IMG/VR virus record: IMGVR_UViG_3300035703_000414
Span: 1-23,285 of that record
Reading direction: 5' to 3' (one strand)
DNA length: 23,285 nucleotides
Origin: a virus
Positions within the stretch are counted from its first letter, which is position 1. Every line of letters starts with the position of its first letter. The translations under genes and the position numbers were made by a program. Under the pieces are notes generated by a model. The model was not told the origin of the DNA, did not search any database, and worked only from the letters and a program-made list of their open reading frames with translations. Below are positions 1 through 23,271 of this stretch, one piece after another.

Positions 1-101
1 TATGTTTTACCATCAGGACCAGTTGCCTTGATAGTCTTTTTGTCGGCCGAGTTGACAGCTTGACCAGCATATGCTTCAGTGAATTCATTAAACTTTTTCA
101 T
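1..101 (-). CDS. N-terminus of a late protein with a capsid-targeting-like leader (partial)
   Basis: Only the first 33 codons are in the window; the gene runs off the left edge. The ATG at 99-101 follows AGGA at a suitable distance and starts 4 bases after the endolysin stop, so it belongs to the same late operon. The first residues read MKKFNEFTEA, the same pattern (Met, basic, x, aromatic, acidic or polar, then Glu-Ala) as the T4 internal-head-protein targeting peptide and as three other proteins in this window. The next residues are polar and rich in Lys, Ala and Gly. No function can be assigned from so short a fragment; head packaging is an inference from the leader alone. Confidence 0.7.
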   Translation of the reverse strand, partial: MKKFNEFTEAYAGQAVNSADKKTIKATGPDGKT

Positions 102-105
102 GTGA

Positions 106-978
106 TTATCCTAGAAGTTTCTTAAGTGTTGCAGGGCCTGCTATACCATCAGCAGTAAGTTTATTTTTAGCTTGCCAATCTTTCACGGCACGCTTTGCTC
201 TTAAATCATATGTACCATCAACTGTGAGACCAAGTTTTGCTTGAACCGCTTTCACTGTGTCACCAGTTGATCCAACATTCAATGATGTAGTCAGATCAAT
301 ATTTGATGTAGAAACAGATTTAATGACAGGCGCAACAGGAACCTTACCACCAAGAATGGCAAGTGCTGCTTCATACCGTTTCTTACGATCTGCAAGACCA
401 ATGTCGCCGCCATTGATGATCTTTGTCATCTTCACAATATCACCAGTATCAGCAACGGCATTCAGTTTATTTCTATTCCAGAACCAGCAAGCCGATTCGA
501 TAGCACCCTTTTCTGTTGCAACATATACTGCAGCCTCTTCCGCTGTCATACCGATGCTCTTACCAAAGTTGGTGTAGTTCTCACGACCAGTCAATTGCTT
601 TAGACCACGACCACGGAACAACCAACCATCACCCGGTTTTACGTTACCCATCTTGGATACACGAAACTCATCCATGTAAACATAGTTGGCAATCATTTCA
701 GGTTTTCTTGCATATTCTTTAGCATTACGTTTTGGCGCAGGCCCGAAGTACCGACCGAATGTCTTTAGCAATTGTGCTTCAGAATAGTTCAGGTTTTCTT
801 CAAGGGCGGTAAAGTTAGTTGATTCGTGTGCACACTGTGCTACAAATCCTGCAATACGATTTGGTGTATTGATTTCATACTTGGGAAAAATCTCCAACAT
901 GGCCTTATGCCACATTGCAACCTTTTTATTGGTTGGAATCATTGCCGCTAGATGTTCTTCTTTAAATTCAAATGTCAT
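106..978 (-). CDS. Endolysin: GH19 chitinase-like lysozyme with C-terminal peptidoglycan-binding domain
   Basis: A 290-residue muralytic enzyme expected to cleave the glycan strands of host peptidoglycan at lysis. Residues about 10-215 resemble the GH19 fold used by many phage endolysins: the helix with AHES carries the likely catalytic Glu52, and the later GWLFRGRGLKQLTG stretch is typical of GH19 proteins. Residues about 232-290 (GSTGDTVKAVQ ... VDGTYD ... DGIAGPATLKKLL) form a PG_binding_1 repeat. There is no signal peptide, so export would need a holin, which is not seen here. A longer reading frame extends 39 codons upstream, but ATG 976-978 is preceded by GGGGAAG at a good distance and overlaps the upstream gene by only 11 bases, so it is chosen as the start. 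It lies in the late operon, which fits its role. Confidence 0.9.
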   Translation of the reverse strand: MTFEFKEEHLAAMIPTNKKVAMWHKAMLEIFPKYEINTPNRIAGFVAQCAHESTNFTALEENLNYSEAQLLKTFGRYFGPAPKRNAKEYARKPEMIANYVYMDEFRVSKMGNVKPGDGWLFRGRGLKQLTGRENYTNFGKSIGMTAEEAAVYVATEKGAIESACWFWNRNKLNAVADTGDIVKMTKIINGGDIGLADRKKRYEAALAILGGKVPVAPVIKSVSTSNIDLTTSLNVGSTGDTVKAVQAKLGLTVDGTYDLRAKRAVKDWQAKNKLTADGIAGPATLKKLLG

Positions 979-1420
979 AATCTTCCCCATACATTTTCTT
1001 ATATCGTTTAGTGTAAATTGATTCTTTTGTTTTTGCTGTTGCATCACCAGGAGCCTTAGCATATGCTGAAGGATCATCCCAATGCTTTTCCGCACCTTTT
1101 TTAAAGTGTGAAGCTCTGGCAGAGTCAGTTGATTTTACGCCAGTCTTATAGTTTTTTGAAATGTCTGCTTCTCTTAGATCTTTATCAGCGCCATAATATG
1201 TGCCTTTTCCTTTTGTGATATAAGAGTTAACCCTTGCCATTCCCCATTGTTGTGGTGTTGTGCCAGGACGATGTCCTGTGCGCCATGCTGCCATTCCTCG
1301 GTTATATACTTTTCTTAGTATTCCAATGGAAACACCTGATGCAGCAGCTTTTTTAGCCAGACCTGATTCTTCTTCATCAAGTTCAGTAGCTTCTAAAATG
1401 ATCTGTTTAAATGTTTTCAT
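968..1420 (-). CDS. DUF5824-like late protein with capsid-targeting-like N-terminus
   Basis: A 150-residue protein. Residues about 30-85 (GILRKVYNRGMAAWRTGHR, then TTPQQW, ARVNSYITKGKG and a YYGADKDL-like end) match the DUF5824 pattern found in many tailed-phage proteins whose role is not established. It begins MKTFKQIILEATELDEEE, which resembles the T4 capsid-targeting peptide (cleavage after a Glu followed by Ala), so it may be packaged and trimmed in the prohead. The C-terminal third is Lys-rich and polar. It starts 9 bases after the stop of the large multidomain gene and overlaps the endolysin start by 11 bases, so it is cotranscribed with both. A diverged copy of its central motif appears to lie inside the large neighbour (its residues about 410-460). 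Confidence 0.8.
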   Translation of the reverse strand: MKTFKQIILEATELDEEESGLAKKAAASGVSIGILRKVYNRGMAAWRTGHRPGTTPQQWGMARVNSYITKGKGTYYGADKDLREADISKNYKTGVKSTDSARASHFKKGAEKHWDDPSAYAKAPGDATAKTKESIYTKRYKKMYGEDYDI

Positions 1421-1429
1421 GATTGTCTC

Positions 1430-4237
1430 TTAATATTGAACTGTTTTATTTGGTGATGTAAAATTCTTTTTACGCATAATGGTTTTAAAAGTGACTTCCA
1501 CTTCACCTTTTTTACGATCAATAATAACAGGCATATTCAATGATTTTTGTATGTCCTTGATAACTACTTCAAGACCAACATTAGATTTAATCTTTGCTCC
1601 AGCATTGGCATATACTTTACGGAAGAAGTCTTTCAATTCTTTGACATTGATACATGGTGTATTACGTTCATCTGACATACGATCACCGAAGTGCTTTGTA
1701 AATTCAATATCAATGCCGTATTTTGACAATAGTTCATCGGCAAATTTTTCAAGTTCACGAATGTCTGCTTGAGTAATAAGGGCACATTGTGTTTCTTCAG
1801 TCAACATGGCTTCAAATGCTTCATTCACAGACTGATTAGGAGTATCTTTTTTGTACTTCTTTGTTAACTTATCGGTACCCATATCTCCAGCACCATGTTC
1901 TTCTTTCATGGTTTGTACTTTAATCCATTCGCGGGCTGCATTGCTTTCAGGTTTTGTTTTAGACCATCCAGCAATTTTACGATATGTCGACAATACAGCA
2001 CTTTCATAATTAGAACCTTCTGAGTTATCAATAATAAACATCTTTTGACGGAAGAAATTTTGGAACTTACCAATATTCTTTTGTACATCTTTCCACATCG
2101 ATTCTACTTCAGCATCTGGAAGTGAACGTGATCTCATTCTATTTCTAGTAAGAGCAGTATCAAGGTCTGTGTTCACAAAGATCATTGCAACTTCATACCC
2201 AATGGAGCGAAGTTTATCGGCTTGTTTTTCAATCTTTGCATAATCTTTACCTGTACCATCAATAACCAGACCAAGACGACCAGCAACTGCCAATTCCAAT
2301 TTCTTACCAGTGGTGATCTTTGCTTGTTCTCTTGTCTGTTGACCTAATGTTGAATAGATGTCTTCTGGTGTTGGTTTAAGATTAACTTTAACCAAAGCTC
2401 TTTCAAAAACATCATCTGAATTTATTACTTTAAAACCAAGTGATGATAATGCAGTCTTGCCTACAATAAATGATTTACCTGATCCAGGACCACCGGCAAG
2501 AAATACTGCTTTAAAGATTGATGGATCATTTACACCTTCAATTTTTAATGTTGCTGGATAACCTTCATCTCCCGGCTTTTTAGGTGGTAAACCTTTTTTA
2601 CGGCGAGCATTAATATTTGCCCATAGTCCAGCAGATTCATATGCAGGTCCACCAGCTCGTGTATGCTTCTTTTCACCGGCATATTTCTTCATCATCTTTT
2701 TATAGATGCCTTTTTCAATACCACTTACATCGGCCGGTGTTGTTTTATCTAAACTATCGACATCACCATCTTGATCAAGATCACGATGTGTCAATCCATG
2801 TACTAATTGATGCTTAAGAGGAAGACCTGGATTTAGAAGATGTGGTAATTTTGTTGTCGCTTCAGCAACAAAGTTATTTACTTTATTAAATGCATGTTGT
2901 TCATCTGTTAAATGAGAACCATGTTGTTCTGAAAGTCCTTCATTATATACTGATAGGATAACATCAAAATCAATGTTTGCATGTTCTGCCTTTTTCAAGA
3001 GTGCAGACATACTTTTCTGTTCTTGTAGTTTAACTGATTCAAACGCCTCGTCAATTAATTCAAGTAGTTCAAGATCAGATTCTACTTCTTCATTTACATG
3101 TCGATTAAATTTAAAACGACGATCAAACTTTACATTTTTATCTTTTGTAAAAAGTTCATGGAATCTTTTCTTTGGTTTTGTATCAGTCATTGATGCTTCC
3201 ATAAATGATTCAAAGGATTCATTTACTTTAACAGCATCAACATTACCATGTGTTGCATGTTGAAAGCGAATCATTTCAGCTTTTCTTACTGAAGGAAGTA
3301 ATCTCATTGCAATTTTTCCAATTGCCTTTTTACGCTTTTCAACCTGTTTATCAATTTGGATCTTTTCACTTGGTGATAAATCATGATAGTTAGCACCACG
3401 TTCACCAGCAACTCTATTACGAATTAGTTCAATTGCTCTCTTACGTGCTCTCATAACCAATTTTTTATTATCAGCCATTCTCTTGGCTGCTCTCATTCTT
3501 CCTGCTTTAAGCTTTGGCTCAAGTCTACGAAGTGTCTGCGCTCTTTTGAGTCTTTGTGCAATAGTCAATACTGCTTCATCTAATTCAAGACCTTCGGCAA
3601 TGCGCATTCCAGCACGAACAAGTTTATAAACATCCTCGGCATGTGCTTGTAACTTTTTAGGAAGACCTTTTGTAAATGCTGCCTGATCGCCTTGGAGCGC
3701 CAATGCTCTCATCTTTGATGCAGACATACCTGTTACATCATCAGCATCTGGATCACGTTCACCAGCCGATACTACTTGAATTGAATCAAACTTATATACA
3801 TTACCATTATACTTTGACAATAGTGCCTGAAATTCATTGATTCTATCTTGACCAGCAACAAGGATAATATTGTCATACTGGTCTTGAAGTTGTTTCATAA
3901 TATCAATAATTGTTTTTGATGGCGAACTTTTAATAATCCCACCAAACGCAGTTTTGGCAAGACGTAATTTGTCATCATATGAAAGTGGATTCTTTTTTGG
4001 ATCTTGAGTATGTGAAAGAAATACCATAGGATCAGCTTTAGACTTACGAGATAATTCTAAAACCTTATTGACAAGCTTCTCATGTCCAACTGTAATTGGA
4101 TTCATGCGACCCCACGCAATAACGGCAGTTTTACCGGAAGCTTCTTTTAATGTGGGATTGATTTCAATAGTATTCTTAACTAATTCTTTATTTGCTTTAT
4201 CAGTCTTCTTAGAAGACTTATTTTTATCTAGTTTCAT
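1430..4237 (-). CDS. Large multidomain late protein: nucleotidyltransferase, basic helical region, DUF5824-like segment, EF-hand, P-loop kinase, C-terminal nuclease-like domain
   Basis: A 935-residue protein from ATG 4235-4237 (GGAG 5 bases upstream; an ATG at 4252 lacks a good site). In order: residues 38-215, a cytidylyltransferase/NMN adenylyltransferase-like domain (GRMNPITVGHE, the HxGH-type motif, and TGMSASKMR in place of the usual ISSTxxR); 220-330, a very basic helical stretch; 338-350, a capsid-targeting-like segment NESFESFMEAS; about 405-460, a degenerate copy of the DUF5824 motif; 484-497, an EF-hand-like loop DLDQDGDVDSLD; 538-560, LWANINARRKKG ... KPGDEGYP; 570-750, a P-loop kinase with GGPGSGKS (Lys588) and VIDGTGKDY; 803-815, a second targeting-like segment; 820-935, a domain with FTKHFGDRM and a TIMRKKNF end, like phage RelE/EndoU-type nuclease-like domains. 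The separate domains are common in T4-like marine phages. The enzymatic activities, and possible processing into pieces, are inferred. Confidence 0.85.
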   Translation of the reverse strand: MKLDKNKSSKKTDKANKELVKNTIEINPTLKEASGKTAVIAWGRMNPITVGHEKLVNKVLELSRKSKADPMVFLSHTQDPKKNPLSYDDKLRLAKTAFGGIIKSSPSKTIIDIMKQLQDQYDNIILVAGQDRINEFQALLSKYNGNVYKFDSIQVVSAGERDPDADDVTGMSASKMRALALQGDQAAFTKGLPKKLQAHAEDVYKLVRAGMRIAEGLELDEAVLTIAQRLKRAQTLRRLEPKLKAGRMRAAKRMADNKKLVMRARKRAIELIRNRVAGERGANYHDLSPSEKIQIDKQVEKRKKAIGKIAMRLLPSVRKAEMIRFQHATHGNVDAVKVNESFESFMEASMTDTKPKKRFHELFTKDKNVKFDRRFKFNRHVNEEVESDLELLELIDEAFESVKLQEQKSMSALLKKAEHANIDFDVILSVYNEGLSEQHGSHLTDEQHAFNKVNNFVAEATTKLPHLLNPGLPLKHQLVHGLTHRDLDQDGDVDSLDKTTPADVSGIEKGIYKKMMKKYAGEKKHTRAGGPAYESAGLWANINARRKKGLPPKKPGDEGYPATLKIEGVNDPSIFKAVFLAGGPGSGKSFIVGKTALSSLGFKVINSDDVFERALVKVNLKPTPEDIYSTLGQQTREQAKITTGKKLELAVAGRLGLVIDGTGKDYAKIEKQADKLRSIGYEVAMIFVNTDLDTALTRNRMRSRSLPDAEVESMWKDVQKNIGKFQNFFRQKMFIIDNSEGSNYESAVLSTYRKIAGWSKTKPESNAAREWIKVQTMKEEHGAGDMGTDKLTKKYKKDTPNQSVNEAFEAMLTEETQCALITQADIRELEKFADELLSKYGIDIEFTKHFGDRMSDERNTPCINVKELKDFFRKVYANAGAKIKSNVGLEVVIKDIQKSLNMPVIIDRKKGEVEVTFKTIMRKKNFTSPNKTVQY

Positions 4238-4282
4238 TTTATCTCCAATCATAGGTTTGCCGTAGCCTTACTACATTAATAG

Positions 4283-4290
4283 TATTTATA
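4283..4290 (-). promoter_or_regulatory. T4-type late promoter TATAAATA
   Basis: Exact late octamer on the minus strand, directly after the terminator of the DUF1127 gene and about 45 bases before the start of the 935-aa gene. No -35 is present. It should drive the large multidomain gene, the DUF5824 gene, the endolysin and the partial gene at the left edge. Confidence 0.88.
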
Positions 4291-4317
4291 TAAAAGAAAA
4301 GCGGGCATAAAGCCCGC
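4291..4317 (-). terminator. Rho-independent terminator after DUF1127
   Basis: GCGGGC, loop TTTAT, GCCCGC, then TTTTCTTTT on the minus strand. On the plus strand the same stem is followed by CTTTTT, so it may also stop opposing transcription. Confidence 0.9.
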
Positions 4318-4326
4318 CTTTTTCGA

Positions 4327-4348
4327 TCCAATACAGATTTATTGGATT
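4327..4348. repeat. Inverted repeat ATCCAATA/TATTGGAT after DUF1127
   Basis: Eight pairs around a 6-base loop, overlapping the DUF1127 stop codon and preceding the terminator. The same stem sequence occurs in the Hsp20 leader at 16162-16190. Confidence 0.6.
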
Positions 4349-4574
4349 ATTTTTCACCAAGAGTTCTAATATGTTCCTTGGCAATCATTTCAATATCATA
4401 ACGTGAAAGACCAATGTCGCGTAGATCACGATCTGATAGTGAGTCAAGTTCCTTAATGGTCTTTTTAATCATTTTGGCCTTATCTCTACGTTTTTGAAGT
4501 TCCAAAAAGTATGTTTGAAATAGACTGTAAAACTTTGAAAACCCTGTTTGCGATAGTGTAAGTGCGATAGTCAT
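4347..4574 (-). CDS. DUF1127 family small protein
   Basis: A 75-residue protein whose C-terminal half (TIKELDSLSDRDLRDIGLSR, then YDIEMIAKEH) is a clear DUF1127 (YjiS-like) domain. This family is abundant in Alphaproteobacteria and Gammaproteobacteria, where small members have been linked to RNA binding and to phosphate and carbon metabolism. The N-terminal half is amphipathic and Lys/Arg-rich in its middle. The start at 4572-4574 has AGAGG 6 bases upstream. The gene lies behind a 110-base gap containing a hairpin and a near-late-promoter TGATAAATA, and is closed by a strong terminator at 4291-4317. A host-type regulator on a phage suggests capture from the host and manipulation of host RNA or metabolism; this is inference. 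Confidence 0.88.
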   Translation of the reverse strand: MTIALTLSQTGFSKFYSLFQTYFLELQKRRDKAKMIKKTIKELDSLSDRDLRDIGLSRYDIEMIAKEHIRTLGEK

Positions 4575-4597
4575 GTTTAACCTCTGTGATATGTGTC

Positions 4598-4616
4598 AGT
4601 TGTCCCATTGACAACT
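4598..4616. other. Hairpin in the DUF1127 leader
   Basis: AGTTGTC, 5-base loop, GACAACT. It lies in the 110-base gap between the structural gene stop and the DUF1127 start. A late-promoter-like TGATAAATA (one base off at the first position) lies at 4622-4630 on the minus strand. No T tract follows the stem. The rest of the gap shows nothing else. Confidence 0.5.
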
Positions 4617-4684
4617 ATCTATATTTATCACATTTTTTGACTATGAGCATTGACATTATGGTATACCAGGTATCACAATAATAG

Positions 4685-5992
4685 TTAGGTGATTTCTTCC
4701 CAAGCCATTGAAGCAAGTGCATCGTTGCCGTTAGCAGCACCTGTAGCAGCCAATGTAATGATGATACCTTTATTGCTTGCCGCAAATGGATCTCTCTCAA
4801 GTTGATAAGAAAATAGTTGATCTCTGCTTAGGTTAATGGCAGCTGCTCCAGATCCTGCACCAACGTTAACATACCCAACTTGTGCATCACGTCCGCCAGT
4901 AATTGCAGTGGCTGTTATATCATATTCAATGGATGAATCATCACTGGCCGAAACAAATGATGCATCAGTGAGTGTTCCACCGATGATGATTTTATAACGA
5001 TAACTTGTGTTGTTTGTTACGCCGAAGAATTCAACATCTTTCAATATAGCCAAAGCATCTTTAAATGAATCTTTTAGTCTGATTGACATAATAGGTGTAA
5101 AAGTACCTGTAGTAGGTATGTCTTTTGGTGTAGAAAGTGGAATACCTACGCCTCTTGATCTGCCTTCTAGAGTGTAGCCACCTTCAGAAATAACAGTAGA
5201 ACAAATCTGCTTCATCTTGGATGCAGAAGCCGATGTACCAGTGTTTTCAATTTCATATCGAATTGGAAGTATAGCCGTAGTCATATATGTTGTAGTATTA
5301 ATGTTGTCGTTGTGGAAGATATGTGCTGTATACATCAATCCGTCAACCACAAAACCGCATCGAACATCGCCGACACCAAGCCATTCAATGTCAATCCAAA
5401 ATATGTTTGCTTTCGTTATGTCTAATGAACCACGATCTGAGTGTGCTGCTTGAGTAGATAAACCATTGCCGTCAAATTTATCAATATTCCAACTTGACTG
5501 TGGAATTCTTGTTTCTACAACAGAACCTGTAACGTAGCTTCGAAGGACAAGCCAATTACTCGTTCCGTCATTTTCAAAGAATACACCATTTTCAGTACTG
5601 AAATAACCAACTCGTTGACGAACATTTGCTTTTTGCTCATTGAAGACGAACGTATTCATGATTAATAAAGACTTACCCGGCTGATATGCAAATACTCTCT
5701 TTGATTCACGATAGCACTTATCACCAGAAGCAGTGCCAACATTCATATCAACAACGGACTGATTCACTTGGTGCACAGTATTTGCAGTACCACTTGTACT
5801 CGTTGCAAATTTATCATTAATCTGATACCGATGATATGAATCAAATAGTGTAAGTGGATTTGAAACTCGTATGCGACCAAACGCATCTGTTGCAGTTCCA
5901 GTTGAAGTCAATCTACTACTCAGCATATTGACTTCAAAAATAGTTTTGCTATCTGCAAGATATTTTGTAGTATCTGTTCTAAATTGTGCCAT
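4685..5992 (-). CDS. Virion structural protein (T4-like marine phage type)
   Basis: A 435-residue protein with the beta-rich, Gly/Ser/Thr/Asn-rich composition of phage particle proteins. The stretch FGRIRVSNPLTLFDSYHRY near residues 40-60 is characteristic of a structural protein family seen in cyanophage and pelagiphage T4-like genomes, whose exact place in the particle (fibre, decoration or neck) I cannot tell. ATG 5990-5992 shares one base with the stop of the preceding gene (TAATG), which suggests translational coupling; a TTG four codons upstream is in frame but AAAGG lies only one base before it. The C-terminus (SNKGIIITLAATGA ... ALASMAWEEIT) is compact and hydrophobic. It belongs to the late operon from the promoter at 8021-8028. 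Confidence 0.75.
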   Translation of the reverse strand: MAQFRTDTTKYLADSKTIFEVNMLSSRLTSTGTATDAFGRIRVSNPLTLFDSYHRYQINDKFATSTSGTANTVHQVNQSVVDMNVGTASGDKCYRESKRVFAYQPGKSLLIMNTFVFNEQKANVRQRVGYFSTENGVFFENDGTSNWLVLRSYVTGSVVETRIPQSSWNIDKFDGNGLSTQAAHSDRGSLDITKANIFWIDIEWLGVGDVRCGFVVDGLMYTAHIFHNDNINTTTYMTTAILPIRYEIENTGTSASASKMKQICSTVISEGGYTLEGRSRGVGIPLSTPKDIPTTGTFTPIMSIRLKDSFKDALAILKDVEFFGVTNNTSYRYKIIIGGTLTDASFVSASDDSSIEYDITATAITGGRDAQVGYVNVGAGSGAAAINLSRDQLFSYQLERDPFAASNKGIIITLAATGAANGNDALASMAWEEIT

Positions 5993-7221
5993 TATCTTTG
6001 CCAACCTTTAATTGTGTCTGATGAAAAGTTTGCATGAGAAAATTGAAGTCTGTCAATTAACTTAACTGCGCCCTTTCCAATATGATCAATTGCTACAAAA
6101 CCTTCTTGTTCAGTGACTTTATAGCCATCTGGAGTGCGAAGGAATGTACCAATCTGTTTTGCTTTATCTAGTTTGCGGACAATGATAAGTTTGGCATCTG
6201 TGATATAGTTATATAGATCAAATAATGCTACAATTTGTGTTTTATCAGTATTTGCAAAGTATTTCATTAACTCTTTTCGTTTGAGTTCAACCTTACTTTT
6301 ACCAGCTTCGGTTTTAAGTTTGTCTGCTTCTTTTTTATAATAAGCAGTGATGTAATCAACAAGATCGTCAACAAATTTATTAGTATCATTGATACGTTGT
6401 CCTTCTCTAACTTTGGAATTAATAAATGTTTTTACACGAAGAAGCAACTCATCGTTATTTGATATTCCTTCAAATGTAGTTCTTTTTAATTTTGAAAAAA
6501 TCTTACCAGCAGCGGATAAGAGTTGAGTCACTTGTTCTGTTTCAGTCTCTGTCATATTGGCAGAACCTGAAATGTCACGATACATGGCATCTACCGACCA
6601 GACGTTTCTCGACTTTTTGAGATGAGTTGCAATCTCCTCTCCAAAACTTGCCGACATTGTTTCAAAAGATTCTCCTCGATATGTAGTGTGCCAGACCACA
6701 CCGATTCTGGAGGCAAGGATTTGTTTAGCAAGAAGGCTGTTTTTTGGTACCGCGTAAACAATCGTGTTAGGATGAAAAGTAATATACGATTCTCCATCAA
6801 TCTTAACTTCTTTAATATCACTTTTTGCATATAGAAAATCACCTTGTATGACGCCTTTGATGCCAAGTTCTGGTAAGTATTCAAGGGCTAGTTTTAATTT
6901 TGTATTTAAATCACCAGATGTATCAGCATCAATATCAGCATCAGTCTTATATATCTTTGGGTTCTTATTAAAGATACCTTTTTTAGCAACAAAGAACTTA
7001 TCATCCGATGGATCAATACCAGCAAAAATAGCAGGAGCGCCGTCCCATTTAATGGTCACATTGACTTTATTGGTAGTTTTACCGGCCAACATATCACGAA
7101 GCGATTGAAGGAAATTAATTGCTTCACGTGTACCTTCAACACCACCATTCAGAATATTATCTTCCAAATGTTCCATGTGTGTATTTTTGGCTTCAGTAAG
7201 AAATGAATTAAAGCGAATCAT
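5992..7221 (-). CDS. DUF6267 protein: ligase-like nucleotidyltransferase with capsid-targeting-like N-terminus
   Basis: A 409-residue protein. Elements resembling the covalent nucleotidyltransferase motifs of DNA/RNA ligases are visible in order: motif I KWDGAPAIFAG with candidate lysine Lys58, a motif III-like VIQGDFLYA at 124-132, motif IV-like EGFVAIDH at 373-380 and motif V-like AVKLIDR around Lys387. This matches phage proteins grouped as DUF6267. Nucleic acid ligation or end adenylation is therefore likely but not proven; the long insert between motifs III and IV (about 190-340, Lys/Glu-rich helices) is unlike classical ligases. The protein begins MIRFNSFLTEAKN, again like the T4 capsid-targeting peptide. 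Its ATG overlaps the preceding stop (ATGA) with AAAGG upstream, and its own stop overlaps the next start, so three late genes are coupled. Confidence 0.75.
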   Translation of the reverse strand: MIRFNSFLTEAKNTHMEHLEDNILNGGVEGTREAINFLQSLRDMLAGKTTNKVNVTIKWDGAPAIFAGIDPSDDKFFVAKKGIFNKNPKIYKTDADIDADTSGDLNTKLKLALEYLPELGIKGVIQGDFLYAKSDIKEVKIDGESYITFHPNTIVYAVPKNSLLAKQILASRIGVVWHTTYRGESFETMSASFGEEIATHLKKSRNVWSVDAMYRDISGSANMTETETEQVTQLLSAAGKIFSKLKRTTFEGISNNDELLLRVKTFINSKVREGQRINDTNKFVDDLVDYITAYYKKEADKLKTEAGKSKVELKRKELMKYFANTDKTQIVALFDLYNYITDAKLIIVRKLDKAKQIGTFLRTPDGYKVTEQEGFVAIDHIGKGAVKLIDRLQFSHANFSSDTIKGWQR

Positions 7222-7997
7222 AATTTGACCTTTGGTTTGATCGTACCGCTAGTAACGTGATATAGAAAAATTTCATTTTGTTTAATTGATTTTATAGCCG
7301 CAATATCACCTACTTTAGCATATTTACTATTATTGATAAAGATAACTTCATGTTTACTAAAATAGTTATCATAAGCGCTTTTTGCAAATTTTTGTTCAAT
7401 GGCATTAAATTCAGCTGGAGCTTTTTGTTTCATGAGTTTTAAATCATTTGGTGCTATTTCAGTAGCAGATCCTCTTACCTCAAGTTTCATTCTCAATTTA
7501 TTTAGTTCAGTTTTAAATTCATCTAATGCAATGGTACCACCAAGTTTAAAGTCATAAGCCATGTTATCGGTACTTACAGATACTGCTTTTACTTCATAAC
7601 CCTTACCGCCGACCATTATATCTAGGCCAGCAGATGCACCTCCACCCAATTTTGCATTATTAATTAGAAAATACAGTGTTACTTCACCCGGCCCAATTCC
7701 TTTGAGATTGTAGTTGTGAAGTTTTTTAAAGTTTTCCATATCCTGATTTTTTAATGTAGCAATAAGTGTATTTAGTTTTTCCATATTAACACCATCAATT
7801 GTTTTTGAGATGTCAAATTTTGGAAAGAAATGCATATTAAACAAATATTGAATTTCTTTTTTATGTATCAGAGTGGTAAATTCTGATGGTTTTAAATTGA
7901 ATGACGAAACTTTGAGAGCATTATTAATAAACTCCATGTTCAAATCCGCCATAGTAATCTCCGATTCTTCTTTTATAAACTCTCTAAATCGTTTCAT
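7218..7997 (-). CDS. PD-(D/E)XK nuclease-like late protein with capsid-targeting N-terminus
   Basis: A 259-residue protein. Residues 103-140 contain GPGEVTLYFLINNAKLGGG followed by GLDIMVGGKGYEVKAV; Glu105, Asp126 and Glu135-x-Lys137 are arranged as in PD-(D/E)XK nucleases. I infer a metal-dependent DNA endonuclease or a relative that has kept the fold. The rest is Lys-rich and helical. It begins MKRFREFIKEESE, the closest match in the window to the T4 internal-protein targeting peptide (which I recall as MKTYQEFIAE, cut after Glu10). The start at 7995-7997 is chosen because AAGGGG lies about 6 bases upstream; the open frame extends 51 more codons but crosses the late promoter and terminator. 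It is the first gene after the late promoter at 8021-8028. Confidence 0.72.
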   Translation of the reverse strand: MKRFREFIKEESEITMADLNMEFINNALKVSSFNLKPSEFTTLIHKKEIQYLFNMHFFPKFDISKTIDGVNMEKLNTLIATLKNQDMENFKKLHNYNLKGIGPGEVTLYFLINNAKLGGGASAGLDIMVGGKGYEVKAVSVSTDNMAYDFKLGGTIALDEFKTELNKLRMKLEVRGSATEIAPNDLKLMKQKAPAEFNAIEQKFAKSAYDNYFSKHEVIFINNSKYAKVGDIAAIKSIKQNEIFLYHVTSGTIKPKVKL

Positions 7998-8020: not shown

Positions 8021-8028
8021 TATTTATA
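8021..8028 (-). promoter_or_regulatory. T4-type late promoter TATAAATA
   Basis: An exact match to the T4 late promoter octamer on the minus strand, with no -35 box, as expected for late promoters read by the gp55/gp33-modified polymerase. It lies between the upstream terminator and the AAGGGG site of the nuclease-like gene, leaving a leader of roughly 15-20 bases. It should drive the nuclease-like, DUF6267 and structural genes. Confidence 0.85.
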
Positions 8029-8030
8029 TA

Positions 8031-8054
8031 AAAAAAAGAGCCCGAAGGCTCTTT
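8031..8054 (-). terminator. Rho-independent terminator after the tiny-gene cluster
   Basis: On the minus strand AGAGCC, loop TTCG, GGCTCT is followed by a run of T. The stem begins within the stop codon of the 88-aa gene (8053). It separates the early tiny genes from the late promoter at 8021-8028. Confidence 0.9.
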
Positions 8055-8319
8055 AAGTTTTTGCATTTTCACCAATGAGGATATAATCCTTGTCACCGGT
8101 AAATATTTCTGTAAAGATTTCAAAGTATTTATTTGTATGGGTAATGCCATTCAAAACCAAATAATATTGGAACTCATCCTTCAGTAGATCTTCATCCATA
8201 GATCGAATGTCAAAACCAAAACTTTCAAAATCCCATTCCATGGCTTCAGCAATTGTGCACCCATAGTCTTTCATCATACCAAGAATGCGCAGAATAAAGG
8301 TATCTAATGGATCATTCAT
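8053..8319 (-). CDS. Hypothetical acidic 88-aa protein
   Basis: I do not recognise this family. The protein is acidic and rich in aromatic residues (MNDPLDTFILRILGMMKDYG; later DFESFGFDIRSMDEDLL and IFTEIFTGDKDYILIGE), looks soluble and helical, and has no membrane segment. ATG 8317-8319 has GGAG about 7 bases upstream; the open frame continues 40 codons further but that part belongs to the 59-aa gene in another frame. It overlaps that gene by 8 bases and is last in the early tiny-gene run, ending at a strong terminator. Its size and position suggest an early host-takeover or anti-defence role, which is inference only. Confidence 0.72.
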   Translation of the reverse strand: MNDPLDTFILRILGMMKDYGCTIAEAMEWDFESFGFDIRSMDEDLLKDEFQYYLVLNGITHTNKYFEIFTEIFTGDKDYILIGENAKT

Positions 8320-21509: not shown

Positions 21510-22346
21510 TCATCCTTTATATGTAATATTTTGCATTTTTTCACGATCGTCCAAATCATAACCTGAACGATAATTGTTGTTTGCATTAATCACTTCACGA
21601 AGAACACTAAAGTCTTCTGCAAAGTTTAGAAATGCGGCAGTATCTTTTGGAAAACAGGCGCCACCAAATCCACGTTTACCATCAAATCCTGGCACTGATG
21701 TATGTGATGTGCCAATTCGAGGATCGGCCGTTACAGCATTGATCACGGAATTATAGTTGGAGCCATGTTTTTCTATAATATCATAAAACTGATTCATCCA
21801 CAATACTTTAGTAGCAAGGAATGAGTTAATGCCATACTTAACAAAACTGGCTTCTTCAGCGGTCATGTTATAGACAGGGCAAGGTTTACAAGTGCTGTAT
21901 TTCTTATAGAGTTCATGCAGTATATTGCATGCCTTAGGTTGACCACCAAATACGTGCAGATTTGGATTTACAAAGTCTTCATTTGCGGCTTTTTCGGTAA
22001 GAAACTCTGGGTTATAGATTACTCTATCACCATTTGGCCCAGATGTCAATGTCTTAATTACGTCGGGGGTTACAGTTGACTTAATAACAATGAGTCCACC
22101 GCCACCATAGTCTTTAATAAAGTTTACCGCATTACTGACGAATGTTGAATTAATACTTCCATCAGGATTCATTGGTGTTGGGACGCAGATAAAAACTGCC
22201 TCTAGATCCAGATTATACAGTCTATCAATACCAACATTATATTTTGGATCAATAATGATCTTTTCCAAATTTGGATTACTAAATCCATAGTCAACAGCTT
22301 TACCAACAAACCCATGCCCAACAATAGCAATTTTCTTTTTTATCAT
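21510..22346 (-). CDS. UDP-glucose/GDP-mannose dehydrogenase-like protein, short form
   Basis: A 278-residue NAD-dependent sugar-nucleotide dehydrogenase relative. GHGFVG at 10-15 is the dinucleotide-binding turn; the catalytic residues are present (Glu114 in YNPEFLTEKAA, Lys170 in FVKYGINSF, Cys231 in GFGGACFPKDT). Ordinary UDP-glucose 6-dehydrogenases have about 430 residues; here the C-terminal UDP-binding domain is missing. The next gene starts 3 bases after the stop, so it is not a truncation by a local frameshift. Phage short forms like this one occur, and the sugar may be bound differently. It overlaps the upstream epimerase gene (ATGA). Product would be a UDP-uronic acid if the substrate is UDP-glucose. 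Confidence 0.82.
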   Translation of the reverse strand: MIKKKIAIVGHGFVGKAVDYGFSNPNLEKIIIDPKYNVGIDRLYNLDLEAVFICVPTPMNPDGSINSTFVSNAVNFIKDYGGGGLIVIKSTVTPDVIKTLTSGPNGDRVIYNPEFLTEKAANEDFVNPNLHVFGGQPKACNILHELYKKYSTCKPCPVYNMTAEEASFVKYGINSFLATKVLWMNQFYDIIEKHGSNYNSVINAVTADPRIGTSHTSVPGFDGKRGFGGACFPKDTAAFLNFAEDFSVLREVINANNNYRSGYDLDDREKMQNITYKG

Positions 22347-23194
22347 ACCATATTCTTCCTAATCTCTGCAATCCAATCTTTCAGTTCACGCTTTGGTTCC
22401 CAACCAAGTTCTCTTGTTTTAGTATCAATCACAGGTGCAGACATCCTATTACCTTTACGTTCAGGTAATTTTGCTATAAGACCACCAAACAACTTGGCAA
22501 TTTCTAGGATACTGTATGCTTTTGGATTACCAATTCCATATTCATCACCATGACCATTTTTTCCAATCAGAATCAATGCATCAATAATATCATCCACATG
22601 AGTAAAATTACGCTCTTGTGTACCTGGCGCCACAACAGGCAATAGTTGTTTTTGTTTCATCAACTCTGCATATTTAGCGATCAGTGTGGCATACTTTCCA
22701 GTGGAAATTTCTCGAGGTCCATATACGTTATAGAAATATGTGATGGCATAGTCAATGTCATTCCATTCACAATACTGTTTTACAAACTCAGTATTGGATG
22801 CCTTCGACCACTGATATGGACTTACTACATCAACCTCTGCAAATTTGGTTGAACTGCCAGCATAGATAAGTTTTGCACCAGTCTTCTTTACGAATTTTAA
22901 TACTTCATATGTACCGATCTTGTTATACTTCCAGACCAATTCCATATCATCAAACGATTGTTCTACACGGGAGTATTCACCTAGATGGAATACATAATCG
23001 AACGAATTATGCGGAAAGATGGATAAAATATCTTCAGTCGATCCATATCTATATCGGACACCCTCGACTTCATTGGCCTCAGAACCAGTAAAGTAGTTGT
23101 CCAATGATACCACTTCATTTGTGGGATCGGAAGCCAATCTCTCGCAGAGATGACTTCCGATAAATCCGGCACCGCCGGTAATAAGATATTTCAT
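22343..23194 (-). CDS. NAD-dependent epimerase/dehydratase (extended SDR)
   Basis: A 283-residue sugar-nucleotide epimerase or dehydratase. GGAGFIGSH at 7-15 binds NAD, Ser114 or Ser115 in YAGSSTKFAE and Tyr127-x-x-x-Lys131 in SPYQWSK are the catalytic set, and NVYGPRE follows. Which sugar nucleotide it acts on cannot be decided; the nearby dehydrogenase suggests a UDP-hexose or UDP-uronic acid. ATG 23192-23194 with AAGGA at 7 bases is selected; the frame extends 20 codons upstream into the promoter. It is the first gene of the long early operon. Confidence 0.85.
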   Translation of the reverse strand: MKYLITGGAGFIGSHLCERLASDPTNEVVSLDNYFTGSEANEVEGVRYRYGSTEDILSIFPHNSFDYVFHLGEYSRVEQSFDDMELVWKYNKIGTYEVLKFVKKTGAKLIYAGSSTKFAEVDVVSPYQWSKASNTEFVKQYCEWNDIDYAITYFYNVYGPREISTGKYATLIAKYAELMKQKQLLPVVAPGTQERNFTHVDDIIDALILIGKNGHGDEYGIGNPKAYSILEIAKLFGGLIAKLPERKGNRMSAPVIDTKTRELGWEPKRELKDWIAEIRKNMV

Positions 23195-23221
23195 ATTCAA
23201 ATCCTTGTTTCTATATAGATC

Positions 23222-23250
23222 AATATATACCATACTAAAAGAAATGTCAA
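23222..23250 (-). promoter_or_regulatory. Sigma70-type early promoter for the nucleotide-sugar/clamp operon
   Basis: TTGACA at 23250-23245 and TATATT at 23227-23222 on the minus strand, 17 bases apart. The -35 is one arm of the 13-bp inverted repeat at 23238-23271. Confidence 0.85.
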
Positions 23251-23271
23251 CCAAAAAATTGACATTTCTTT
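23238..23271. repeat. 13-bp perfect inverted repeat covering the -35 box
   Basis: AAAGAAATGTCAA (23238-23250), 8-base spacer, TTGACATTTCTTT (23259-23271). It contains a TTGACA on each strand. It could be an operator, a divergent promoter pair (the plus-strand -10 would fall at the window edge) or the AT-rich stem of a terminator for the gene upstream. Confidence 0.75.

Follow-up and report, generated by a model that had tools for sequence, protein, structure and literature searches.

The stretch of DNA analysed here (the window) is a contig of 23,285 bases from the IMG/VR collection (IMGVR_UViG_3300035703_000414) that derives from a T4-like phage. The minus strand of the window encodes DNA polymerase B, UvsX, the gp41 helicase, gp44, gp62, gp45, RegA and Hsp20, and to the left of these genes lies an operon whose products begin with a shared leader of 9–10 residues. 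The leader is present on three complete proteins and on a fourth that is cut by the window edge, and the conserved operon of leader-bearing (tagged) genes adjoins the replication genes. All four N-termini named in the preliminary description of this DNA are present: MKRFREFIKEE (start at position 7997), MIRFNSFLTEA (7221), MKTFKQIILEA (1420) and MKKFNEFTEA (101), each on the minus strand, as are the tagged genes, leaders, cut sites and promoters described below.

The gene P0006 (7218–7997) encodes a candidate PD-(D/E)XK-like nuclease of 259 amino acids, assigned from its motif, its homologues and a structure model, and its leader MKRFREFIKE/E covers residues 1–10 (7968–7997) with a predicted cut after Glu10. 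Pfam and PHROG searches returned no match for this protein. P0001 (5992–7221, 409 amino acids) starts with MIRFNSFLTE/A (residues 1–10, 7192–7221) and belongs to the DUF6267 family (PF19782, E = 5e-115), which is predicted to be a ligase-like nucleotidyltransferase on the basis of Pfam, invariant motifs and fold. P0002 (968–1420, 150 amino acids) is a DUF5824 protein (PF19141, E = 8e-20) with the leader MKTFKQIILE/A (residues 1–10, 1391–1420). P0007 is represented by its first 33 amino acids (3–101), which begin with MKKFNEFTE/AYAGQ, and has no homologue among the related loci that were compared. A virion structural protein (phrog_1645), a DUF1127 gene and P0003 (1430–4252), a protein of 940 amino acids (935 from the next ATG), are also encoded among the tagged genes. 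The DUF1127 product is a small protein (PF06568) encoded at 4347–4574 in the phage late region.

Genetic analysis of T4 IPIII defined a ten-residue capsid-targeting sequence (CTS) in which residues 4 and 7 direct targeting and residues 8 and 10 direct processing (PMC9026906). The three complete leaders in the window fit this sequence at residues 4, 7, 8 and 10, and the P0007 leader, with nine residues, is one residue shorter and resembles the start of T4 IPI. A total of 80 DUF6267 relatives were gathered by homology without the leader as a criterion. All 80 share M1, Glu10, F or L at position 4 and L or I at position 8; position 7 is F or Y in all relatives save two (V and L), and positions 2, 3, 5, 6 and 9 vary freely. 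As conservation is limited to positions 4, 7, 8 and 10 in addition to M1, the conserved residues are exactly the targeting and processing determinants of T4. In the AlphaFold models of P0001 and P0006, residues 1–15 are disordered, with a predicted local distance difference test score (pLDDT) <50. Some relatives of P0006 lack the leader and begin at the body of the protein, and the leaderless DUF6267 protein S-SZBM1_141 begins MAKNTHLEHLED compared with ...FLTE/AKNTHMEHLED in the window. Given this modelled disorder and the homologues that begin at the body, the leader is, by prediction, a removable module. Its putative cut site, [L/I/F]-x-E, resembles the predicted cut sites in the major capsid proteins of the same phages, which are FLSE/A in the near relative G001, LLME/T in G002 and G003, SLLGE/A in G004, ILTE/A in S-SZBM1 and FLTE/A in T4. 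The T4-type prohead protease gp21 and core protein gp22 are encoded in G001 and in G002–G004; the window ends short of the head genes.

Chance matching as the source of the leader was excluded by T4, internal-methionine, reversed and permuted controls. Within the window, all in-frame ATG codons with 60 or more amino acids behind them were scanned for M-[polar/charged]-x-[FYL]-x-x-[hydrophobic]-[hydrophobic]-x-E, which matched at the three complete genes only. When the window, T4 and seven related phages or contigs were pooled, a stricter pattern gave 24 matches near gene starts versus 0 among approximately 5,600 internal methionine codons (Fisher p = 2e-10); in T4 it found only IPII and IPIII, both internal head proteins. 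A DNA pattern for the phenylalanine-type leader occurred at 13 places in five complete phages and its reversed control at none. Among the 125 leader matches listed from IMG/VR, 120 were at gene starts and none was inside a long reading frame; a permuted pattern of the same letters occurred 41 times in the whole collection, with 6 out of 41 at gene starts. As a separate observation on T4, the 54-amino-acid protein gp61.1 (L164:18966–19130, minus strand) starts with MKTFKEFIKED, which fits the capsid-targeting pattern and raises the possibility that gp61.1 is an internal head protein of T4 that has gone unrecognised.

The leader was found on at least 18 families without mutual sequence similarity in approximately 2.1 Mb of related loci, including a HAD phosphatase (phrog_415, polynucleotide kinase), an HD phosphohydrolase, a P-loop kinase, a ParB-like nuclease and many uncharacterised families. 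Cytoplasmic early proteins were expected to lack the leader, and there were 0 matches among the replication and transcription proteins checked in G001–G005 (polymerase, UvsX, gp41, gp44, gp45, gp32, RegA, NrdA and others). None of the tail proteins that were checked carries it either. The gene ahead of DUF6267 represents a changing slot: more than 10 unrelated groups occupy it in 78 loci, and the DUF6267 gene behind it is conserved. In these loci, 38 slot genes have a canonical leader and several groups display a D...(E/S)xK signature. One slot group (L052) was identified by PADLOC as a type II restriction enzyme (model REase_II, E = 1e-10) and is the only slot family with a PADLOC match; P0006 was unmatched in that search. 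Small DUF6321 / ‘RRKSFCARMSG’ proteins were repeatedly observed with a leader in different phages (L272:12225–12509, L103:10981, and L162:22629–23126).

Three published mass spectrometry studies of cyanophage virions, on S-CREM2 (PMC10665884), S-SZBM1 (PMC9146016) and S-SCSM1 (PMC9602691), were compared with the distribution of the leader. A scan of the whole S-CREM2 genome with any start codon allowed identified eight leader-like matches, six of them at gene starts, one inside nrdA and one without an annotated start. Five out of the six proteins with the leader at the gene start were detected in virions, versus 52 out of 221 proteins overall. The five are the S-adenosylmethionine (SAM) lyase gp6 (MKDFDSFLEE; PF23780, E = 2e-19, L184:338–1582), gp13 (MKDLHSFLTE), the APH-like kinase gp14 (KRFDAFLTE, GTG start), gp136 (MQTFSMFFSE) and the NMNAT-like gp154 (MKNFSSFLTE). 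SAM lyases are a known kind of anti-restriction enzyme. In S-SZBM1, the virion-detected NMNAT-like protein _140 begins with MRFRQFIIE/A, and the leaderless DUF6267 protein _141 and its likewise leaderless neighbour _142 were undetected in virions. The virion-detected NMNAT-like protein of S-SCSM1 begins with MKSFLQFLKE/A; its detected neighbour, SSCSM1_90, belongs to phrog_1462, a relative of which (in L086) is located in the operon and carries a leader. Thus, all three virion-detected NMNAT-like proteins examined carry the leader. Based on stricter patterns, five out of eight leader genes in the three phages were virion-detected (p = 0.006). A further S-CREM2 virion protein, gp12 (L184:4205–6814), is annotated as Cas9-like and contains LRFASFMAE/A at approximately residues 17–25 behind an N-terminal extension; the extension perhaps reflects a wrongly chosen start. 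A search for literature that joins capsid-targeting sequences and cyanophages found only a T4 review.

The preliminary description placed all tagged genes behind exact late promoters, which holds for the operons and not for each gene singly. One TATAAATA promoter (8021–8028), located directly behind a terminator-like hairpin, serves the nuclease-like and ligase-like genes, and a second (4283–4290) serves the 940-amino-acid gene and, downstream of it, the DUF5824, lysozyme and partial genes. The window contains four copies of TATAAATA, which is not above chance (mean 2.4). The informative evidence is not this count and instead the placement before starts: TATAAATA sits 31–38 nt before a start in the window, and this placement is repeated in relatives, with a spacing to the first gene of 29–47 nt in the cases listed. 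Among the leader-bearing slot genes, 26 out of 38 have TATAAATA within 120 nt of the start, compared with 2 out of 129 before replication genes. When all leader genes were pooled, TATAAATA was not more frequent than before other long open reading frames in these loci, many of them perhaps also late; the useful contrast is between the first genes of leader operons and the replication genes. A G+C-rich hairpin with a T run was observed directly ahead of both late promoters (8021–8056 and 4283–4325, minus strand), so each operon border apparently pairs a terminator with an adjoining late promoter. Two sugar-nucleotide-like genes at the opposite end of the window (21510–23254) are UDP-glucose dehydrogenase-like and NAD-dependent epimerase-like, as judged by inspection of their translations.

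AlphaFold models of the bodies, proposed as a check in the preliminary description, have a pLDDT of 87 for both P0001 and P0006. The best structural match of the DUF6267 model in VIA-align is the Naegleria gruberi RNA ligase (Z = 9.0, 180 residues, root-mean-square deviation 3.5), followed by T. brucei REL1, T4 Rnl2 and T4 Rnl1, and rows 1–24 are all ligases. Residues K58, D60, G61, E373, G374 and K387, which comprise the KxDG motif and its partner motifs, are invariant in 48 sequences. Foldseek alone returned nothing significant for DUF6267 or P0006, and a profile search against solved structures was likewise negative for DUF6267. The earlier ‘ligase-like’ label is supported by the model and the motifs, according to which DUF6267 has an RNA-ligase fold and is a predicted nucleotidyltransferase. 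The corresponding label of P0006 as a PD-(D/E)XK-like nuclease agrees with an invariant D...ExK motif (D126, E135 and K137 in 14 sequences), but the fold matches are weak. The top six rows for the model are all restriction enzymes (ThaI, Eco15I, HinP1I, DpnI, PvuII) with Z from 4.6 to 3.1, and the profile search of solved structures gave a single weak and irrelevant row (alcohol dehydrogenase, E = 1.3). Motif and model thus suggest a nuclease, a weaker call than that of a ligase for DUF6267.

P0003 combines an NMNAT/cytidylyltransferase-like domain, a P-loop kinase of the polynucleotide kinase (PNK)/zeta-like type and a C-terminal domain. Its only Pfam and PHROGs matches are CTP_transf_like and AAA_33/zeta kinase, and the first domain belongs to the family of cyanophage virion NMNAT/cytidylyltransferases (phrog_395, phrog_3041). 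Three predicted prohead-protease or CTS-like sites were identified within the protein: INPTLKE/A preceding the NMNAT-like domain (4139–4162), SFESFME/A behind the NMNAT-like part (3194–3217) and AFEAMLTE/E preceding the C-terminal domain (1793–1819). The border before the C-terminal domain contains [hydrophobic]-x-E in 11 out of 11 fused homologues (background 0.31, p = 2e-6), e.g., VNEAFEAMLTE/ETQC in the window and VNEAFENFLNE/EEDD in L014. When the C-terminal domain is encoded as a separate gene, in L145, it begins with MLRFKQFVVE/AETC. Similarly, the kinase encoded as a separate gene in L131 begins with MKSFKSYIKE/T, and the fused L014 protein holds FKSFKQYIEE/GVNDP at the same border. The motif test was too strict for the kinase border of the window itself (TLKIE/G), which it missed. 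In relatives, DUF5824 commonly follows the NMNAT-like part within one fused protein, with such a site at the border, and it is a separate gene with a canonical leader in the window and in G001. As the internal CTS-like sites at domain borders match the leaders of the same domains when these are encoded alone, P0003 looks like a packaged head polyprotein that would be cut by the prohead protease. Neither the polyprotein with its internal sites nor the published virion mass spectrometry relevant to the leader was part of the preliminary description.

The claim that the leader is of the T4 targeting style agrees with the residue pattern, the modularity, the late promoters, the restriction to non-cytoplasmic proteins, the match to the capsid cut site and the virion mass spectrometry of relatives, and it is highly probable that the leader is a working CTS. 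The leaders, the late promoters, the domain borders and, by prediction, the ligase-like fold are apparent from the sequence itself, and the following steps are proposed on that basis. The nuclease-like protein, the ligase-like DUF6267 protein, the DUF5824 protein, the partial protein and probably the 940-amino-acid NMNAT-kinase protein would be made late in infection. Residues 4 and 7 of the leader would bind the prohead core so that the tagged proteins become enclosed in the prohead, where a gp21-type protease would recognise [L/I/F]-x-E and cleave behind its Glu, which would remove the leaders and also divide the 940-amino-acid protein at its internal sites. This would leave free enzymes in the head alongside the DNA, which they would probably accompany into the next cell on ejection. 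There, the nuclease, kinase, ligase and NMNAT-like nucleotidyltransferase could act together to cut, to heal ends and to seal, before any phage gene expression. Packaging and cleavage of the tagged proteins are very likely; from sequence comparison, the leader in this phage is very probably cut after Glu. Delivery of the tagged proteins into the host is likely. A purpose in nucleic-acid repair or counter-defence is suggested only tentatively. Taken together, T4-type capsid-targeting leaders on cargo that is packaged, cut by gp21 and probably delivered with the DNA are favoured with good confidence.

Several observations weigh against this reading. No canonical leader match was found in phiM12 or HTVC008M; phiM12 retains an NMNAT-like gene that lacks a canonical leader, and HTVC008M has short or longer leader variants (MYNDLLVE/D and MLSFTGYSNLSE/A). 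Some relatives, such as S-SZBM1_141, have no leader. Four small leader-bearing proteins (S-SZBM1_191, S-SZBM1_192, S-SCSM1_30 and the 55-amino-acid S-CREM2 gp175) were undetected in virions. All virion detections come from related phages, and no spectrum shows an N-terminus directly behind the Glu. The IMG/VR leader proteins include murein hydrolases, so that the leader alone implies neither a nucleic-acid role nor a purpose. Finally, the cyanophage authors point out that such proteins are possibly contaminants of the CsCl-purified particles; contamination is raised in two of the virion studies.

If contamination explains the detections, the tagged proteins would simply be late enzymes of the cytoplasm that are carried along during virion purification, with the leader as an inherited decoration. 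Detection nevertheless follows the leader across unrelated proteins, as in the detection rates of S-CREM2 and in the contrast between leader-bearing S-SZBM1 _140 and its undetected leaderless neighbours, which makes co-purification very improbable. A more serious alternative accepts packaging and cleavage and assigns the tagged proteins to head assembly, as components of the prohead core in the way that T4 IPIII is in part, instead of delivered enzymes. T4 IPIII mutants assemble heads poorly (PMC9026906) and small as well as low-complexity proteins occur in the tagged set, both of which would suit such a role. Scaffolding does not, however, account for the retained catalytic motifs (KxDG with its partners in DUF6267 and the invariant D...ExK of the nuclease-like protein), and the many unrelated nuclease-like families that occupy the first-gene slot suit diversifying enzymes, so that a role confined to assembly is considered unlikely.

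It could also be argued that the resemblance to T4 is convergence and that the leader is an N-terminal helix of late proteins with another purpose, such as docking to the tail or membrane or the start of translation, given that the tag is short and its cleavage has not been demonstrated in any marine phage. Such a helix would not be expected to be conserved exactly on the four residues identified by T4 genetics or to match the cut site of the capsid protein, and the leader is carried by virion proteins detected by mass spectrometry and not by the tail proteins checked. Convergence is therefore regarded as very improbable.

The proposed packaged and delivered cargo can be compared with several known systems. 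The T4 internal proteins IPI, IPII and IPIII are likewise encoded by late genes, cut after Glu by gp21 and found in heads, and their leaders (MKTYQEFIAE/A, MKTFKEFT...) are similar to the M..F..[FY][LI].E of the window phage. They are small basic inhibitors, whereas the cargo of the window phage is enzyme-like (ligase fold, kinase, NMNAT-like and nuclease-like), includes the 940-amino-acid polyprotein with internal sites and is encoded in one conserved operon beside the replication genes. Once delivered, T4 Ip1–3 inhibit the type IV restriction enzymes of the GmrSD kind (PMC12373910), which makes an early role for the tagged proteins plausible. The T4 ADP-ribosyltransferase Alt is a head-packaged enzyme that gp21 processes and that reaches the host along with the DNA, but it is unrelated to the enzymes described here and its shorter leader, MELITELFDE, falls outside the four-residue pattern. 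The virion NMNATs of S-CREM2, S-SZBM1 and S-SCSM1 are of the same family as the first domain of P0003; the accessible parts of the respective papers (PMC10665884, PMC9146016, PMC9602691) name no targeting peptide or route of head entry. The polyvalent proteins found in phages and conjugative elements are also large, multidomain products of late gene regions that are thought to be processed, packaged and injected (PMC5512222). Their hallmark domains (ART, PBECR, metallopeptidase and MuF) were not found in P0003 by Pfam or PHROGs and, unlike in polyvalent proteins, the proposed processing of P0003 is by a T4-type prohead protease at CTS-like sites. DUF6267 shares the KxDG and EG.V / VKL motifs with its best structural matches, the nick-sealing RNA ligases (Naegleria gruberi, T4 Rnl2 and Rnl1), and differs from them by the lack of a sequence match to any solved ligase, a long helical insertion and the packaging leader.

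NMNAT-like enzymes, kinases and uncharacterised proteins recur in the virion proteomes of marine T4-like phages with an unexplained route of entry, for which a ten-residue label with a T4 mechanism offers an explanation. The leader would allow the head-carried proteins of any T4-like phage to be predicted from sequence alone; applied to S-CREM2, it also singles out a SAM lyase as packaged cargo. It further points to a conserved operon with a changing nuclease-like first gene and an RNA-ligase-like second gene, and to a polyprotein that would be cut by the prohead protease. Speculatively, the heads of marine T4-like phages may carry a processed cut-heal-seal set that consists of a fast-changing nuclease slot, a conserved RNA/DNA-ligase-like protein and kinase, phosphatase and NMNAT-like enzymes that the prohead protease releases from a polyprotein. 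Delivered with the genome and acting before phage expression, this set might be directed against host or rival DNA or might mend phage DNA and host tRNA after damage by defence systems. It thereby becomes possible to test directly what phages bring into the cell during the first minute of infection.

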